From Glaciecola sp. (GTDB lineage: Bacteria > Pseudomonadota > Gammaproteobacteria > Enterobacterales > Alteromonadaceae): a stretch of 64,000 bases of DNA. The position numbers were made by a program, and so were the translations under genes. The DNA lies in NCBI GenBank assembly GCA_029246415.1, contig JAQWNF010000002.1, forward strand, positions 1 to 64,000, written 5' to 3'. The notes under the pieces were generated by a model. The model ran no database searches. It was not told where the DNA came from and was given only the letters and a program-made list of their open reading frames with translations. This document shows, in pieces, positions 9,003-34,410 of the stretch (position 1 is the stretch's first letter; the number at the start of each line of letters is the position of its first letter).

Positions 9003-10541
9003 TTAACTAACGTCATCTAAATTTAACGTTATATCTTGATCAACATTCATAGGAAACAAATGAGTGGCAACAACGACACAATGTTCAGCGGCGTAATCAC
9101 TAATTAATGCATATATACACATTTGATTTTGACTATCTAATCCTTCAAAAGGTTCATCAATTAATAATACATCTGGTTGACGCAATAAAGCTCGAGCAAG
9201 GGCAAAACGTTTTATTTCACCACCCGATAACTGCCGAGCATTTCCACCAATCCAACTACTTAATTGATCGGTCAAGTTTGTCAAACCGACCGCACATAAC
9301 ACCTGCTGTAATTGCTCATTGGTAAGGGTTACATCCCCCATTCTTAAGTTATCTTCGATACTTGTAAATAATATTGTAGGATGCTGCTGGACTAATTGCC
9401 AATTATCATGAAAGCCGAATCGAGGGTAACGATCATTTAATTGACATAGCGCATGTTTAGGATACATTCCTTGCATAATCTCTAATAAACTTGACTTACC
9501 CGAGCCTGAAGAGCCGGTGATCCAAAGAGGAACACCCTTTCTTATTTGGATGCCTGGATATGTTTTTTGTCTATATGGCAAGCTAACTTTAGACCAGCGA
9601 ATGGTTTGTATTCCATCCGCTAAGATTCCTGTGTCCTCAAACTTTCCATTGTCACTATCTGGCTTGAGTTGTACACCAGAGATATGTGTTAGGCGCTGTT
9701 GGCTTTGTTGAAAAGTTAATAACTCAGGTTGTGCTTGAAACCACACTAGCGCCCAATCTTGAGCGGCTAAAAACACAATAGAAGGAACGACCAATAAGGC
9801 ATTGCCCAACATATTATCGGGTATGTGTGTTAGCGTATAAACTAACCCTGCACTTGTTAACACCAATAAAAACACAATCCCACGCTGAACCTGCCCTTGT
9901 ACCTGAAAATAAACCTGCCAATATTGAACGGGATTAATCGTCGGTGTTTGAGCGTATAAATGCCATAAACTAGTGCTATTTAAGGTATGGTTGATATTAT
10001 CTCGCAGGGCGGTTTGAGCGCTAACCAATGCCCTAACCACGCTATATGATTGCCATAATAGCATCGCCCATACTAGCGCTAGAGTGACCGCGAATCCGCC
10101 CCAAATTAGCGCGTCATGCGGGGTTAATACAATAATAATAATCTGACATAAAATCAGCCCTATCACCACAGAAGCATGCTGAACTAACCAATTCACCCAC
10201 GCACCCGCTATGGATAACGTATCTTGTTCTAATTGGGTTTCGAGCTCTGCATTTCCGGTTAAAATGGTGTTTTTTAAGCGTGCAAACAATGCCGCTCGAG
10301 TTTGCCGTAGGCGCACAAATAAACGTTGATGTCCCCACCATAAGTGGCCATAACCAGAAGCAATACGGGTCAACGCTAACGCCCTAATAGCCACCGCAGG
10401 CAACATATAGTTGAACCCAACCGTTGCCGTTGCACAAGCAGCCAAAAACCAAGTTGCAAAAATAACCAATAGCAGGCCTGCGATCTGATGAATCACCCCA
10501 ATACCAAAACTAAACCAAGGCTTGGTTAAACGCTTTGTCAT
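9003..10541 (-). CDS. cydC: CydC, heterodimeric ABC exporter subunit
   Basis: A 512-residue half-transporter: six hydrophobic segments in residues 1-280, then an ABC ATPase domain. It has Walker A GSSGSGKSS, the signature LSGGEIKRFALARALLR and Walker B DVLLIDEPFEGLD. With CydD it forms the inner-membrane CydDC exporter, which is needed to assemble cytochrome bd and has been associated with thiol export and haem binding. The ATG overlaps the cydD stop by 4 bp, so translation is coupled. Order and orientation are cydA-cydB-cydX-cydD-cydC, matching its role in oxidase maturation. Confidence 0.93.
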   Translation of the reverse strand: MTKRLTKPWFSFGIGVIHQIAGLLLVIFATWFLAACATATVGFNYMLPAVAIRALALTRIASGYGHLWWGHQRLFVRLRQTRAALFARLKNTILTGNAELETQLEQDTLSIAGAWVNWLVQHASVVIGLILCQIIIIVLTPHDALIWGGFAVTLALVWAMLLWQSYSVVRALVSAQTALRDNINHTLNSTSLWHLYAQTPTINPVQYWQVYFQVQGQVQRGIVFLLVLTSAGLVYTLTHIPDNMLGNALLVVPSIVFLAAQDWALVWFQAQPELLTFQQSQQRLTHISGVQLKPDSDNGKFEDTGILADGIQTIRWSKVSLPYRQKTYPGIQIRKGVPLWITGSSGSGKSSLLEIMQGMYPKHALCQLNDRYPRFGFHDNWQLVQQHPTILFTSIEDNLRMGDVTLTNEQLQQVLCAVGLTNLTDQLSSWIGGNARQLSGGEIKRFALARALLRQPDVLLIDEPFEGLDSQNQMCIYALISDYAAEHCVVVATHLFPMNVDQDITLNLDDVS

Positions 10542-12094
10542 AGGATTAATTCTCCACTTTCAGAAACCCGCCACTGCTCAGTGAACCATGTCGGCGGTAA
10601 CCCTTTATGTGATACCCAGATGACATGTTTATGTGCAAACACGGTATGCATCAGCCCGCTTATCTCATTGTGTAGTTGTGCTGTTAAAAATGCCGTCGGC
10701 TCATCTAACAAGACAATATCTACATCCAACAACATAATGCGTGCCAATGCAATGCGCCGTGCCTCGCCTCCAGATAGTGGCGGATAGTCCCCCATTTCCG
10801 TCGCTAGCCCTTGTGGTTGTTGTAATAACCATTCTGCTAATCCGACTTGAGTCAGGACGTGAATAATCTCTGCAGTTGGGTATTCTCGATCAAGACAGAC
10901 ATTTTCACGAATTGATCCCGGTAAAATAACCGACTCTTGAGTGAGCATTGCCACTTTCAACTGCAAAGACGAAGGATCTCGTAACAGCAGCTCAAATATA
11001 CCTTGTAATAAACGCGTCTTGCCTGCTCCAGATGGACCCGTCAACGCGATCCAATGTGGCTTAGGAGGTGTGCTTGTGGAGCTAACGAGTTCATCTAATC
11101 GCGCAATGGCTTGGTTGGCCACCTCAGTTGGAGCATACGTTAAATCAACTTCTAGCGCAGCACTCGCTGCGATTGCCGCTTCTTTTTGATGATATAACTG
11201 GCCAAGACGTTTGAGTTCGGCAAACAACAGCGGAACCACTAACAAAATGAACATCCCATCGACAAACTGAATACTGATCCCAAAATCGATTTCACCCAAT
11301 AACGAAAAACCAATATAAACCGCGATAATTGCAATCGACAGGGTACTAAAAAAATCGAGCAATGAACTTGATACAAACGCTAGTGTCAGCACGTGCATCG
11401 TTTTAATATTATATGCTGTACTGGCTTGATCTAATATTTTGGCCTGCGCATCATGGTGCTTAAACTGAGCTAACAATTTACTATTTCGTAAGCGATCAGC
11501 AAACAATGTCCCCAGATCAGCCAACGCCTGGAAGTGAGCTTGATGGCGATGTGCCGTGCCTTTGCCAACCAATATCATAAACACAGGTAGTAGAGGAAGA
11601 GTAACGAGTAGCGCGATACCAATCAACCAATTAATCGCAGTAATAATTCCAATTACTAGTAATGGAATTAACGCTGAAAGCCATTTTTGCACGACAAAAT
11701 CAAAGAGGTAATTAGCTACCGTAGGGATATGCTGTAACCATATTTGCTGCCAAGCATACATACTTTGGCTGCGGATCTGATGCTGGCTCGCTTGGGCGAG
11801 ATCTTGACTGAGTTGTTGATGAATCGACTGTTGATAAGTCATCTTTAACTGAGTCCGTACCTGCGCCAATACAGCATAGGCGATGCACATACCAATACTG
11901 CTGACTAACAAGATTTTGAGAGTCTCAACACTCACAGGCTGACGCTGAATTAACAAGGCGGCAAAACTTTGAGCTAGCGCCCACAGCGCGCCTATTTTAC
12001 ATGCGATGTAAGCACATTGTAATAGCAAAACAATAAGCAAAGCGGGTCGTTGTTCCACGCTTTGCTTAACTAACCAGTCTTGAGACAACTTCAT
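10538..12094 (-). CDS. cydD: CydD, heterodimeric ABC exporter subunit
   Basis: A 518-residue half-transporter with an N-terminal six-helix domain and a C-terminal ATPase. Walker A is GPSGAGKTRLL, the signature LSGGEARRIALARIML and Walker B IVLLDEPTAF. It pairs with CydC to export reducing thiols to the periplasm during cytochrome bd assembly. It begins only 6 bp after the cydX stop codon and overlaps cydC by 4 bp, so the whole cyd set appears to be a single transcription unit read leftward from the promoter near 15000. Confidence 0.93.
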   Translation of the reverse strand: MKLSQDWLVKQSVEQRPALLIVLLLQCAYIACKIGALWALAQSFAALLIQRQPVSVETLKILLVSSIGMCIAYAVLAQVRTQLKMTYQQSIHQQLSQDLAQASQHQIRSQSMYAWQQIWLQHIPTVANYLFDFVVQKWLSALIPLLVIGIITAINWLIGIALLVTLPLLPVFMILVGKGTAHRHQAHFQALADLGTLFADRLRNSKLLAQFKHHDAQAKILDQASTAYNIKTMHVLTLAFVSSSLLDFFSTLSIAIIAVYIGFSLLGEIDFGISIQFVDGMFILLVVPLLFAELKRLGQLYHQKEAAIAASAALEVDLTYAPTEVANQAIARLDELVSSTSTPPKPHWIALTGPSGAGKTRLLQGIFELLLRDPSSLQLKVAMLTQESVILPGSIRENVCLDREYPTAEIIHVLTQVGLAEWLLQQPQGLATEMGDYPPLSGGEARRIALARIMLLDVDIVLLDEPTAFLTAQLHNEISGLMHTVFAHKHVIWVSHKGLPPTWFTEQWRVSESGELIL

Positions 12095-12100
12095 CAGGAG

Positions 12101-12202
12101 TTATTCTTTATCCATATTATCATTGGCTTCTAACCACATCGCATTAATAATACCAAATGAACATGCTAACAACACACCTAATATCCAAGCAAAATACCAC
12201 AT
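12101..12202 (-). CDS. cydX: CydX, cytochrome bd oxidase small subunit
   Basis: A 33-residue ORF starting with MWYFAWILGVLLACSFGIIN and ending LEANDNMDKE. The MWYFAWILG opening, the single transmembrane helix and the acidic tail are diagnostic of CydX/YbgT, the small subunit that stabilises the haem b595/d site of CydAB. AGGAGT stands about 6 bp before the ATG. It lies 8 bp downstream of cydB and 6 bp upstream of cydD, the expected position. It is short enough to be missed by automated callers. Confidence 0.93.
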   Translation of the reverse strand: MWYFAWILGVLLACSFGIINAMWLEANDNMDKE

Positions 12203-12210
12203 AATAACTC

Positions 12211-13347
12211 CTAATAAATTGTATGAGACTGATTGAGATCTTGAGTACTAATTCGACCTCGCATTACCCAAAAACCATATAATGTATAGCCCAATACAAT
12301 CGGGACAAAAATACACGCAACAACAAACATAGTCTGCAACGTTAGCTCACTGGAGCTGGCATCCCACAATGTAAGACTGGCATTAGGCATATTGGCACTG
12401 GGTAAAATAAATGGAAATAATGAAAATCCAGCAGTCAATATTACCCCAGTGATCTGACTTGCGCTGCCCACAAACGCTAGCCATGCGTTACCTTGACGAG
12501 AGGCAAACCAGCACAGTAGACCACCGGCAAAGGCGATAATTGGTGCGCTGATCATCCAAGGGTACAGACTATAATTGTTTAGCCAAGCGCCACTTTCTAT
12601 CACAACTGTTTTGTTAACAGGGTTAGACGTAGCACTACTATCAATGACAGAAGTAATCACCATACCATCAACACCCAATGCTAAATATACACCACTAATA
12701 GCAAATAACCCCATAGTTACCAAGGATAATTTTGCACTCACTGAACGCGCTTTGAGTTGTAAGTTATCTGTGGTTTTCATTTGTAACCACGCTGCACCAT
12801 GAGTCAAGATCATACCAACAGACACTAAACCACTGAGCAAAGCAAACGGTGTTAATAATCCAAAAAATGAGCCGTGATACGTTGAACGCAATGTCTCATC
12901 CACCGAATATGGTACACCTAAAAACAAGTTGCCAAACGCGACTCCAAAAATAAGCGCGGGAATAAAACCACCGGCAAACAATGCCCAGTCCCATGATTTT
13001 CTCCAAGTCGGATTGCTTAATTTTCCGCGGTAATCAAAGCCTAACGGTCTCATCCACAACGCAATTAAGGTTATCGCTAAGGCAAGGTAAAAACCGGAAA
13101 ATGCGGTGGCATATACCATTGGCCATGCAGCAAAAATAGCCCCTCCTGCAGTAATAAACCACACTTGATTACCATCCCAATGTGGCCCGATAGTGTTTAT
13201 CATGACACGTCGCTCAGCATCGTCTTTGCCGACTAAGGTTAATAATGCGCCCACCCCTAAATCAAAGCCATCAGTTACCGCAAATCCGATTAAAAGCACA
13301 CCGACTAACACCCACCATACGAGGCGTAAAAATTCATAATCAATCAT
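12211..13347 (-). CDS. cydB: Cytochrome bd ubiquinol oxidase subunit II (CydB)
   Basis: A 378-residue polytopic membrane protein, the usual length for CydB. The N-terminal LRLVWWVLVGVLLIGFAVTD and GFDLGVGALL and the conserved GPHWDGNQVWFITAGGAIFA are clear family blocks. Together with CydA it forms the high-oxygen-affinity quinol oxidase, which reduces O2 to water while generating a proton gradient. Its ATG overlaps the cydA stop by one base (TAATG), with GGAG a few bases before it, so the two subunits are translationally coupled. Confidence 0.95.
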   Translation of the reverse strand: MIDYEFLRLVWWVLVGVLLIGFAVTDGFDLGVGALLTLVGKDDAERRVMINTIGPHWDGNQVWFITAGGAIFAAWPMVYATAFSGFYLALAITLIALWMRPLGFDYRGKLSNPTWRKSWDWALFAGGFIPALIFGVAFGNLFLGVPYSVDETLRSTYHGSFFGLLTPFALLSGLVSVGMILTHGAAWLQMKTTDNLQLKARSVSAKLSLVTMGLFAISGVYLALGVDGMVITSVIDSSATSNPVNKTVVIESGAWLNNYSLYPWMISAPIIAFAGGLLCWFASRQGNAWLAFVGSASQITGVILTAGFSLFPFILPSANMPNASLTLWDASSSELTLQTMFVVACIFVPIVLGYTLYGFWVMRGRISTQDLNQSHTIY

Positions 13348-14939
13348 TATTTAACTCCTTGAGGATCTAATGTAGGTGTCAACACGGGGGCTAACATTGC
13401 GGCTTCTTCGGCTTGTTGCTTGGCATAAGCTGAAGGACCCATTCGTGCAAATTTTTGCATGAGATAAAACGCGATAATAAACATCACTAAATAAAATGTT
13501 GAATAGCCAACTAATGTAAACACAACATCACCCACAGATAAATTCGATACTGATGCATGAACCGGCAAGATCTCAGCAATAGACCAAGGTTGACGCCCAA
13601 ACTCAGCCACGAACCAACCCGCTTCTGAAGCGACCCAAGGCAGAGGTAATGCAAACAGAGCCGTTTTTAATAACCAACGAGGTTTAGGCGTTTGCTGTTT
13701 GGCACTGTAATAAAATGCTAAACCGAAAATCACGAGCATAGCAAACCCAGCTCCGACCATGATTCGGAAACTCCAAAACAGTGGTGCAACAGGCGGGATA
13801 CTATAATCCACAGCTTGTTCTATATTTTCGGGTGATATGTTTTGTAACTTATCGGTAAATGGCTCCAATAACATGCCATACCCTAAGTATTCTTTGGTTT
13901 GCTCAAAGATCGCTTGCTCAGCTTCCGTGGCCGTACCGCTACGGATCTCATCTAGCAAGACATACGCTTTCGCGCCTTCGATGATTTTTTCGCGGTGAGT
14001 GTCGCGGATCTGATCGAGTCCTTTTACTTCTTCGTCCAAAGAACGAGTTGCAATCAAGCCTAACATCCACGGAATTTTCACCGCATAATCTACATGTTGT
14101 GTCTCGTCATTGGGTAACCCTACTAACGTAAAAGGAGCTGGTGCAGGTAATGTCTGATATTCGGCTTCAATTGCAGCGAGTTTCACTTTTTGTACGTCAC
14201 CCATTTCATAGCCGCTTTCATCGCCTAATACGATAACGGATAAGGTGGCAGCTAAACCAAAGCTGGCAGCAATGGCAAACGAGCGTTTGGCAAATGCCAC
14301 GTCAATATTTTTGAGTAAGTAATAACTCGAAATCGCCAATACAAACATCGCTCCTGTCACATAACCTGCGGAAACAGTATGGACAAATTTGACTTGCGCA
14401 ACAGGGTTCATCACCACTTCCGCAAAACTAGTCATTTCCATACGCATGGATTCGTAGTTAAACTGTGAACCGACTGGATTTTGCATCCAACCGTTTGCAA
14501 TCAAAATCCACAATGCAGAAAAATTAGATCCGATGGCCACTAACCATGTCGCCATTAAATGTTTTACTTTAGACATCCGATCCCAACCAAAGAAAAACAA
14601 TCCGACAAAGGTAGACTCAAGGAAAAATGCCATTAAACCTTCAATAGCCAAAGGCGCACCAAAAATATCACCCACGTAATGTGAATAATAAGACCAGTTC
14701 ATGCCAAATTGAAACTCCATGGTTAACCCAGTGGCGACACCGATAGCAAAGTTTATCCCAAACAACTTACCCCAAAACTTGGTCATTTGTTTGTAGACTT
14801 CTTTGCCTGTCATCACATATACCGATTCCATTATCGCGAGCATAAAGCTCAACCCTAACGTCAAAGGTACAAAAATAAAATGGAACATTGCAGTCATTGC
14901 AAACTGCCAACGCGATAGCTCTATCAGGGTTTCATTCAT
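13347..14939 (-). CDS. cydA: Cytochrome bd ubiquinol oxidase subunit I (CydA)
   Basis: A 530-residue membrane protein carrying the haems b558, b595 and d. Visible landmarks are the N-terminal LSRWQFAMTAMFHFIFVPLT with the haem-ligand histidine, the quinol-binding Q-loop between roughly residues 250 and 380, and the block EAGWFVAEFGRQPW (consensus GWxxxExGRQPW). It is the first gene of the cyd operon. Its leader contains a sigma-54-type promoter 60 bp upstream of the ATG and further regulatory sites toward the divergent activator gene. That points to expression under a specific signal, probably low oxygen or redox stress. Confidence 0.95.
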   Translation of the reverse strand: MNETLIELSRWQFAMTAMFHFIFVPLTLGLSFMLAIMESVYVMTGKEVYKQMTKFWGKLFGINFAIGVATGLTMEFQFGMNWSYYSHYVGDIFGAPLAIEGLMAFFLESTFVGLFFFGWDRMSKVKHLMATWLVAIGSNFSALWILIANGWMQNPVGSQFNYESMRMEMTSFAEVVMNPVAQVKFVHTVSAGYVTGAMFVLAISSYYLLKNIDVAFAKRSFAIAASFGLAATLSVIVLGDESGYEMGDVQKVKLAAIEAEYQTLPAPAPFTLVGLPNDETQHVDYAVKIPWMLGLIATRSLDEEVKGLDQIRDTHREKIIEGAKAYVLLDEIRSGTATEAEQAIFEQTKEYLGYGMLLEPFTDKLQNISPENIEQAVDYSIPPVAPLFWSFRIMVGAGFAMLVIFGLAFYYSAKQQTPKPRWLLKTALFALPLPWVASEAGWFVAEFGRQPWSIAEILPVHASVSNLSVGDVVFTLVGYSTFYLVMFIIAFYLMQKFARMGPSAYAKQQAEEAAMLAPVLTPTLDPQGVK

Positions 14940-14998
14940 GGGATACTCTCTTGCTTGTGACTAAATTATAAAATTTGGTTCGCTATTGTTAGTTTAAC

Positions 14999-15014
14999 TG
15001 CAACCTTTATGCCA
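14999..15014 (-). promoter_or_regulatory. Sigma-54 (-24/-12) promoter of the cyd operon
   Basis: The minus strand reads TGGCATAAAGGTTGCA, matching the sigma-54 consensus TGGCAC-N5-TTGC with the essential GG-N10-GC spacing intact. The only deviation is T for C after TGGCA. The -12 element lies about 60 bp before the cydA start codon. The gene diverging on the other side encodes a sigma-54 activator, which makes use of this promoter likely. This is inference from sequence only. Confidence 0.75.
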
Positions 15015-15036
15015 TCAAGCTAAACCCCTGTGTTTG

Positions 15037-15050
15037 TTGACCTGTATCAA
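15037..15050. promoter_or_regulatory. FNR-like box in the cydA/regulator gap
   Basis: TTGACCTGTATCAA agrees with the FNR consensus TTGAT-N4-ATCAA at 9 of the 10 defined bases. It lies 23 bp upstream of the -24 element of the cyd sigma-54 promoter. Oxygen-dependent FNR control of cyd genes is known in enteric bacteria; here it is an inference. Confidence 0.5.
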
Positions 15051-15089
15051 TTTAATCTTGTCTTTTAATTCATTTGGCGAAGCCTTTTA

Positions 15090-15124
15090 TGTCATTCCTG
15101 ACAAACTTCTTGCCATAAATGACA
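15090..15124. promoter_or_regulatory. Paired enhancer (UAS) for the sigma-54 activator
   Basis: Two related inverted repeats, TGTCATTCCTGACA (15090-15103) and TGCCATAAATGACA (15111-15124), share the form TGYCA-N4-TGACA. Their centres are exactly 21 bp apart, two helical turns, so bound dimers would face the same side. They lie about 75-110 bp upstream of the -24 element, a typical enhancer distance, and 45 bp before the activator's own start codon, allowing autoregulation. Apart from these sites and the FNR-like box, the 229-bp gap shows nothing else I can name. Confidence 0.65.
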
Positions 15125-15168
15125 GGTGGAGTATGCTATGAGTATTATTTTCTTAGGTATGTCCCAAT

Positions 15169-16482
15169 ATGAATATTCCATTAGTTCAATCAATGATCAA
15201 AGCCATTGATAAACCAGCTATTTTTATTGATTTAAACTATTCGATACTCGCTGTTAATCAAGCGTATAGAGACACCTACAGTCAAGTAGTACAAACCGGT
15301 AAAAGTAAATGCTATGAAGTATCACATGGGCAATCAGTACCTTGCGATCAAGCCGGCGAGGAATGCCCTTTACAACAATGTAAAACAACCGGCAAGGTCA
15401 GCTCAGTCGTTCATATACATCAACTGCCCAAAGGGAAAAGTTATTGTGATATCGTGATGCGTCCCGTTGTTGATGATGACGGTATGACGATTGGGTATAT
15501 TGAAATACTCGATAAAGTAGAATTTGCCAGTCATCAAGCATCGCCTAATGTCGATCCGAATACCATGATCGGACACTCTCCTGCTTTTAAGCAGCTGATT
15601 AATCAAATCAATCGCGTCGCACCGACTCAAGCCAATACCTTATTACTTGGCGAAACAGGTACGGGTAAAGAGCTAGTGGCACAAGCTATTCATCAATACA
15701 GTCAAACCAAAGATAAACCTATGGTGATAATCGAGTGCACGGGGATCACGGATAACTTATTTGAATCAGAGTTATTTGGACATGAAAAAGGGGCGTTTAC
15801 TGGCGCGACGAGTGCAAAGAAAGGGCTGGTTGATTTGGCTGATGGCGGTACCTTGTTCTTTGACGAGATTGGTGATGTGCCTTTGAATATTCAAGTTAAA
15901 TTATTACGCTTAATTGAAACCGGTACCTATCGTAGTGTCGGGGGGGTAAAACAAAAACACGCTAAATTTAGACTTATCTGCGCTACTCACAAACAGCTTC
16001 CTGAAATGGTTCAGGCGCAAACATTTAGAGCTGATTTATATTACCGTATCGCAACTTTCCCAATCCAGTTACCTCAACTACAATCGCGGGCAGAAGATAT
16101 CCCTGAGCTAGCGAGATTGTTTTTGCAACAGATCGGCTTTAAACATAAATCATTTACCACAGCAGCAATGGCACAGTTAATCCAGTATTCCTTTCCAGGG
16201 AATATCCGTGAGTTAAAAAACATGGTGGAATACGCAGCGATCATGAGCCATGACCTGCTTATTGACACTGAACATTTGCCTTTATCGATGAAAAGTACTG
16301 GAGCGGATCTTGATAATACTGAACAACCAGTGATCCCTTTAGCCCAATTAGAGCCTAATTATTTGGCAAACGTCATCGCGCAATATCCTGGTAATATGAA
16401 GCAGCTCGCCCATGATCTGCAGATCAGTGAACGAACGCTATATCGAAAATGCAGTCAATATGAACTCAAATTAGAAAACTAA
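15169..16482 (+). CDS. Sigma-54-dependent activator with cysteine-rich PAS domain
   Basis: A 437-residue enhancer-binding protein. Residues 1-120 form a PAS-like sensor with a cysteine/histidine cluster: C48, H53, C59, C66 and C71, in [13 protein letters not shown] and ECPLQQC. It could hold a metal or Fe-S centre or act as a thiol switch. The AAA+ domain follows, with Walker A GETGTGKE (161-168), the sigma-54 contact loop GAFTGA (208-213) and Walker B TLFFDEIG. The C-terminal Fis-type helix-turn-helix includes [18 protein letters not shown]. There is no receiver domain, so it is probably controlled by direct sensing. Its position and the sites in the gap identify the cyd operon as the likely target. 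Confidence 0.88.
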
Positions 16483-33621: not shown

Positions 33622-34410
33622 CTATGCAATTTTTTGTGTAGCGACAGTATCTTTTCGACGAAGAATTTCTCCAGCTAATGCTAGATAAGCTTTGGCACCG
33701 GTTGAAGATTTATCATAATACATCGCAGGTGTGCCATAACTTGGTGCTTCTGCTAAACGAACGTTGCGTGGGATCACCGTGCGATATACTAATTTTCCAA
33801 AATGTCGTTTTAGTTGTTCTGAGACATCATTGGCTAATCGATTGCGCGGATCGTACATGGTTCTCAAAATTCCTTCAATGCATAAATCTTTGTTTACCAC
33901 TGACGCTAACTTTTCAATTGTGCCCATTAATTCAGTTAAGCCTTCCAACGCATAATACTCACATTGCATAGGAACGATCACCGAATCAGCAGCGGCTAAC
34001 GCATTCACTGTCAATTGTGACAGCGAAGGCGGGCAATCAATAAAAATAAAATCATAATCATCACGAACCGAATCAAGTGCATTGCGCAAGCGAACTTCTC
34101 GAGCATACAGTTCCATTAATTTAACTTCGGCCGCGGTATTATCAGAATTGCCCGCAATCAAATGATATTTCCCACTGGTTTCTGTGATAATCACTTCTTT
34201 GGCAGGTTTATCTTCAATCAATAATTCATAACACGTATTTTCTACATCGTGTTTTGACACGCCACTGGCGGTCGTTGCATTTCCTTGCGGGTCAAGATCA
34301 ATCAATAAAACCCGACGTTTAGTTGCAGCCATTGATGCCGCGACATTCACTGTCGATGTGGTTTTACCTACTCCACCTTTTTGATTCGCTATTGCAATAA
34401 TTTTAGCCAC
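33622..34410 (-). CDS. parA: Chromosome partitioning ATPase ParA (Soj)
   Basis: A 262-residue ParA/MinD-type ATPase. The deviant Walker A is KGGVGKTTSTVNVAASM, switch I is LLIDLDPQGNATTASGV, and the Walker B-like segment is DFIFIDCPPSLSQLTVNALA. ATP-bound dimers coat the nucleoid and pull ParB-parS complexes. It lies between rsmG (21 bp) and parB (13 bp), the standard mnmG-rsmG-parA-parB order of origin-proximal operons. Confidence 0.96.
   Translation of the reverse strand: MAKIIAIANQKGGVGKTTSTVNVAASMAATKRRVLLIDLDPQGNATTASGVSKHDVENTCYELLIEDKPAKEVIITETSGKYHLIAGNSDNTAAEVKLMELYAREVRLRNALDSVRDDYDFIFIDCPPSLSQLTVNALAAADSVIVPMQCEYYALEGLTELMGTIEKLASVVNKDLCIEGILRTMYDPRNRLANDVSEQLKRHFGKLVYRTVIPRNVRLAEAPSYGTPAMYYDKSSTGAKAYLALAGEILRRKDTVATQKIA

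Follow-up and report, generated by a model that had tools for sequence, protein, structure and literature searches.

The cydABX(DC) operon of this Glaciecola genome is likely to be transcribed from a sigma-54 promoter by a divergently encoded activator that would sense sulfane sulfur (persulfide, polysulfide) in the manner of FisR. Taken separately, the proposal that the adjacent activator drives cydA through sigma-54 appears highly probable from the sequence of the control region and its conservation, and there is a good, somewhat lesser probability that sulfane sulfur is the signal the activator receives. The features concerned lie as follows in the window, by which we mean the whole 64-kb stretch of DNA that was analyzed.

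9003..10541, minus strand: cydC-like ABC exporter gene (NF008364 and TIGR02868, both below cut-off)
10538..12094, minus strand: cydD-like ABC exporter gene (TIGR02857, E 4.9e-82, below its cut-off)
12101..12202, minus strand: small subunit of 33 aa (MWYFAWILGVLLACSFGIINAMWLEANDNMDKE, from the translation), which we take to be cydX-like from its likeness to CydX
12211..13347, minus strand: cydB, cytochrome bd subunit II (TIGR00203, above cut-off)
13347..14939, minus strand: cydA, cytochrome bd subunit I (PF01654, E 4.9e-174)
14940..15168, no strand: control region of 229 bp that separates cydA from the divergent activator gene (from ORF calls and sequence)
14999..15014, minus strand: predicted sigma-54 promoter TGGCATAAAGGTTGCA, directed towards cydA
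15037..15050, no strand: FNR-like box TTGACCTGTATCAA, 9/10 fixed positions
15090..15103, no strand: promoter-proximal putative activator palindrome TGTCATTCCTGACA, 10.7 bits, matrix rank 12 in the window
15111..15124, no strand: promoter-distal putative activator palindrome TGCCATAAATGACA, 17.5 bits, matrix rank 1 in the 64-kb window
15169..16482, plus strand: FisR-like sigma-54 activator, 437 aa (PF08448, PF00158, PF02954; alignment)
15310..15366, plus strand: candidate sulfur-sensing cysteine codons C48 (15310), C59 (15343) and C66 (15364)

The sigma-54 consensus TGGCAY-N5-TTGCW with GG-N10-GC is matched exactly at 15014-14999, and from the position of this site we infer a cydA transcription start near 14988. 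The two palindromes (TGYCA-N4-TGRCA) are 21 bp apart from start to start, with centers at about -108 (proximal) and -129 (distal) relative to that start. The distal one also lies 45-58 bp before the activator start codon, and autoregulation of the activator is therefore possible. When the gap was shuffled 20,000 times (the shuffles throughout this work keep base transitions to first order but not the exact number of each dinucleotide), at least one palindrome of this kind arose at a frequency of 0.00085, two arose in 0/20,000, and the full sigma-54 consensus arose at a frequency of 0.0008. An earlier note on this DNA had recognized the promoter at 14999-15014 by GG-N10-GC, which appears in 46% of the gap shuffles, so that the weight lies on the full consensus; with the consensus present, that promoter stands, and so do the two inverted repeats it had described at 15090-15124 and its FNR-like box at 15037-15050 (P about 0.02 for a 9/10 match). 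In an alignment with two relatives (L008 and L009) whose regulators are about 90% identical to that of the window, the sigma-54 consensus, both sets of palindrome arms, and the 9/10 FNR-like box are all kept; the closest named matches of the window are Glaciecola MAGs, in which the regulator is 90% identical.

Over the 2.96 Mb of the genome there are 11 exact matches to the sigma-54 pattern TGGCAYNNNNNTTGCW and 37 to the palindrome TGYCANNNNTGRCA, where the reversed controls give 2 and 12. Only two of those 37, the pair upstream of cydA, stand 40 bp or less apart. A palindrome matrix for which only 20 sqr-adjacent regulator loci were used in training, with the window and its close kin left out, likewise places qualifying pairs in the 64-kb window only within the cydA/activator gap. 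The same matrix gives a 16.4-bit match at 34009-34022, which lies within a parA-like coding sequence, has no partner site, and is probably due to chance.

The activator combines a PAS-like R domain with an AAA+ sigma-54-interaction domain and a C-terminal Fis-type HTH, and its translation contains GAFTGA, the sigma-54 contact loop. The first five columns of this motif (208-212) hold G in 62, A in 59, F in 61, T in 61, and G in 62 of the 62 rows of the regulator alignment, which represent 61 loci and the window protein again (as reg and as L001); the cysteine alignment omits two near-duplicate loci, L017 and L018. C48, C59, and C66 are invariant (62/62 rows), as is H53 (62/62). The earlier note had spoken of an adjacent PAS-type activator, in agreement with the PAS-like domain and GAFTGA; the FisR-like identity and the link to sulfide oxidation formed no part of it.

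In a homolog from Cupriavidus metallidurans CH34 (L111), which is encoded divergently from PDO-like and SQR genes, the equivalent cysteines are C53, C64, and C71, the last of which is presumably also the third FisR cysteine of Cupriavidus pinatubonensis. FisR of C. pinatubonensis JMP134 (Li et al. 2017, as described in papers that cite it) has the same domain plan and R-domain cysteine spacing as the window activator. It is reported to use three conserved cysteines (PMC9774590) and to carry a tetrasulfide between C53 and C64 (PMC8614764). For both proteins, family members are found beside sulfide-oxidation genes; in the accounts of C. pinatubonensis FisR its target is the sulfide-oxidizing genes, whereas the window activator has two phased palindromes and a divergent cydA. 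The invariant cysteines at FisR numbering and the sulfide-oxidation neighbors of the family are the reasons for which the window protein is called FisR-like, a term set here against the C. metallidurans homolog and not the C. pinatubonensis sequence, and denoting likeness rather than proven membership.

These neighbors are best seen in the relatives. Among the 47 regulators of the family Alteromonadaceae, sqr adjoins 20 (divergently), cydA comes next in 19, directly or behind one small gene, and something else is found in 8. At 11 of the 20 sqr-linked loci, cydA of this type and then cydB follow within the 8 kb read, and in 7 of those 11 a DUF3365/Tll0287-like gene lies between sqr and cydA, with PF11845 confirmed for one. 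The sqr product shows a full-length match to solved SQR structures (PDB 3sz0, E 2.5e-158). More distant regulators adjoin persulfide-dioxygenase-like genes (NF040641, below cut-off) and sulfur-transferase/SQR fusion genes, and persulfide-dioxygenase-like and SQR genes are found at L012, L016, L069/L100, and L111. On the regulator tree, the cyd-next and sqr-next labels take four changes each, at least two being forced by well-supported branches.

It is conceivable, though unlikely, that sigma-54 and the adjacent activator do control cydA but that the signal is not sulfane sulfur, with the R-domain cysteines binding a metal or Fe-S, or sensing oxygen, nitric oxide, or the quinone redox state. 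The PAS-like character of the R domain and the invariance of H53 beside the cysteines would suit such a role, and cytochrome bd is responsive to oxygen and NO in other bacteria. Moreover, the FisR of Acinetobacter baumannii, in which the cysteines are not conserved, unlike in the window activator, is described as responding to sulfide nonetheless (PMC7315123), so the cysteines are not the sole possible sensor. Sulfane sulfur is favored over these signals by the repeated linkage of the regulator family to sqr and persulfide-dioxygenase-like genes and by cysteines that have the spacing and numbering of FisR.

The coupling of the activator to cydA was followed across Alteromonadaceae as a module, consisting of a palindrome pair 15-32 bp apart and then a sigma-54 site, within 600 bp upstream of cydA. 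The regulator was found in 47 of 196 family genomes (E 1e-100 or better), and cydA of this type in 57 of the 196 (at 1e-150), of which 34 have the regulator and 23 do not, absence here meaning no match at E <= 1e-100, so that weaker homologs may remain. With thresholds that were fixed after many of the sequences had been looked at, the module precedes cydA in 24/34 regulator-bearing genomes, 0/23 regulator-free genomes, and 0/1140 shuffled sequences. Fisher's test on the contrast of 24/34 with 0/23 gives P 2.9e-8 with shared ancestry ignored. The earlier note had put forward, as a check, that relatives with the regulator should keep the repeats before cydA, and this is what is observed. The window genome also contains rpoN (PF04552, E 1.4e-70), and this, together with the module contrast and GAFTGA, supports the further claim of that note that cytochrome bd is switched by the adjacent activator.

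Part of this contrast is confounded with lineage, as 20 of the 23 regulator-free cydA genes encode a distant CydA type (<=70% identical to that of the window). Among genomes whose CydA is at least 74% identical, the module is present in 21/28 with the regulator and 0/3 without; at 70% or less, the corresponding values are 3/6 and 0/20. One genus (g24) has the module in 4/4 genomes with the regulator and in 0/2 without (P 0.067 alone). The 24 module-bearing genomes belong by label to 10 genera and share ancestry. In 10 of the 24, the palindromes adjoin the regulator gene and could therefore serve either gene. In the other 14, the module lies beside cydA, apart from the stretch upstream of the regulator, and it is still found at cydA where cydA and the regulator are on different contigs (G044) or about 3.1 Mb apart on one contig (G082).

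Pairs in the 24 modules are 21 bp (16 cases), 22 bp (4), 19 bp (1), or 31-32 bp (3) apart, and none falls at 23-30 bp, though the test allowed it. The 20 sqr promoters, which are the loci on which the matrix was trained, have two or more sites in 18 cases, and 16 of these 18 contain a pair at 20-22 or 30-32 bp and one a pair at 29 bp; the sqr promoter of L041 has overlapping sites only. Such phasing is consistent with dimers that bind the same side of the DNA at an interval of two or three helical turns. The strict sigma-54 filter missed many of the sqr promoters. In a relaxed scan of L020-L042, at least 9/20 have TTGT for TTGC in the -12 element.

In 10 of the 34 regulator-bearing genomes, the cydA promoter has no scored module. 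At five of these loci (L133, L134, L135, L137, and L138), a single strong palindrome is present near cydA, at about -207 to -232, together with a weaker GG-N10-GC site that overlaps an FNR-like box, and L135 has a further pair farther upstream, adjoining the regulator. At L121 and L149, cydA stands behind a small gene that adjoins the regulator, and at L179 the second palindrome is just under the threshold. At L173 and L176, no module elements were found upstream of cydA.

In E. coli, cydAB is controlled by ArcA and FNR with sigma-70. The FNR-like box is common to both systems, whereas the main promoter in the window is of the sigma-54 type. That cydA is under sigma-70 control by FNR (and ArcA) here as well, with palindromes that are autoregulatory only and a sigma-54 match that is fortuitous or minor, is very improbable, for although FNR-like boxes (9 or 10 of 10, within 400 bp upstream) precede 27/57 cydA genes against 2.9% of shuffles, an FNR-like protein is encoded in the genome, and a 10/12 sigma-70-like site is present at 14992-14965, 14 genomes have the module beside cydA and away from the regulator, and L008 and L009 do not preserve the sigma-70-like site, which is of a kind equally common in shuffles (5 vs 5.1). 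Its TATAAT hexamer (14970-14965) falls in an unconserved, gapped stretch of the alignment with these two loci. The values 5 and 5.1 are the sites found in a sigma-70 scan of 14000-16000 and those expected from shuffles, and with such sites as frequent in shuffles the scan is not informative.

The FNR-like box itself is probably real. It is found at 18/34 cydA genes with the regulator and 9/23 without, and the FNR-like protein (G000:C28), whose cysteines are FNR-like by eye, is the genome's one Crp-family HTH protein. The box is not at a fixed place with respect to the sigma-54 site and is therefore best read as an input of its own, which seems to provide a separate, oxygen-linked control that operates with or without the activator.

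Placed into physiological context, the preferred reading, in which a sulfane sulfur-sensing activator works through sigma-54, can be set out as a sequence of steps. Sulfide would be oxidized to sulfane sulfur, which, by analogy with FisR, would crosslink C48, C59, and C66 of the R domain. Activator dimers on the two palindromes, placed by the phased spacing on one helix face two turns apart, would then give rise to an AAA+ oligomer, whose GAFTGA loops would open the sigma-54 RNA polymerase that stands at a distance of about 100 bp, at 14999-15014. The sulfide-resistant cytochrome bd so produced could keep the quinone pool oxidized, including the electrons that come from SQR, with FNR supplying a second input, tied to oxygen and indifferent to the presence of the activator. 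If this is true, the cell keeps respiring oxygen while sulfide poisons its other oxidases. As a specific candidate sensor, its predicted sites, and a predicted promoter have been located, and their presence and absence among genomes give them support, sulfide switching of the terminal oxidase is directly testable.

Elements of this scheme have counterparts in known systems. According to PMC7315123, cytochrome bd resists sulfide and is induced by it, the latter in A. baumannii, E. coli, and M. tuberculosis. Like the activator of the window, the A. baumannii FisR is encoded divergently from an operon that has a predicted sigma-54 promoter, in its case PDO-SQR, and sulfide raises cydAB there too, but cydAB is at another locus than FisR, and no regulator for it is named at the four places where the main text mentions cydAB (PMC7315123). 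E. coli YgaV also exerts sulfide-responsive control over the cytochrome bd genes, but it is described as repressing them without sulfide, and the account of it that we drew on mentions no sigma-54 or enhancer (PMC11858517). A search of open-licence papers returned no direct FisR control of cydAB among the matches listed, and the main text of a PLoS One survey of sigma-54 regulons (PMC12316311) was found to contain no cydA, cytochrome, oxidase, or Alteromonas. The FisR-type regulon here appears to include a terminal oxidase, and the direct link between FisR and cydAB that this implies appears new to the open-licence literature searched, among the matches listed. If it holds, sigma-54 and FisR-type control would be extended to a core respiratory oxidase.

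Other candidate targets can be recognized in the window's own genome. A palindrome pair precedes two of the genome's 11 exact sigma-54 sites, that of cydA and that of a DUF2202 lipoprotein-like gene on contig C6. The pair at the second gene (17.4 and 14.1 bits) has a spacing of 21 bp and lies 110 bp before TGGCACAACCTTTGCT, forming a second complete module (L047) with these parts.

L047, 1370-1404: palindrome pair
L047, 1501-1516: sigma-54 site
L047, 1606-2289: DUF2202 lipoprotein-like gene

The regulator is on contig C20 beside cydA, and sqr and a PDO-like gene are on C35 and C38; it is thus not adjacent to sqr or pdo in this genome, adjacency being the usual context of FisR and not a strict definition. 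No exact palindrome is present in the 12 kb read around the genome's own sqr, so that the sulfur link of this organism comes from the cysteines and from its relatives, and no matrix site of 8 bits or more occurs in the 1.5 kb upstream of its sqr or PDO-like gene (L109, L206). This single sqr homolog belongs to a gene cluster headed by an MMPL gene. A matrix pair, 20 bp apart, lies within the MMPL gene 4.7 kb before sqr (L114 7146-7179, contig C35), about 320 bp downstream of a sigma-54-like site TGGCGTTCTTTTTGCT (L114 7501) that stands just before that gene. This intragenic pair may serve as a downstream enhancer for a relocated sqr cluster, which is suggestive only.

At the level of the Alteromonadales, it could be speculated, with about even chances, that the FisR-like regulon joins sqr and cytochrome bd into one sulfane-sulfur-triggered electron chain from sulfide to oxygen, with phased site pairs at sigma-54 promoters and an oxygen input through FNR, and that sqr was lost from some clusters, leaving cytochrome bd as the regulator's neighbor. 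Were this true, the palindrome matrix would represent a binding motif with which the remaining regulon could be found in marine Alteromonadales. In one genome (G036, L059/L103), a C-terminal sqr remnant lies between the regulator and cydA, suggesting that an ancestral regulator-sqr-cyd cluster lost its sqr by deletion.

A Tll0287-like (PF11845) gene with a CxxCH heme motif is a frequent member of these clusters (L061, L045, and others), either adjoining the regulator or between sqr and cydA. At L187 (2837-4379, G357), the cydA match is in two pieces in different frames, possibly from a frameshift or an assembly error. Finally, at L133, L134, L135, L137, and L138, some 100 bp upstream of cydA, the FNR-like box GTGATATGGATCAA shares bases with the -24 part of a sigma-54-like site (TGGATCAAAACTTGCT or a close variant), and this overlap could make the two inputs exclusive.
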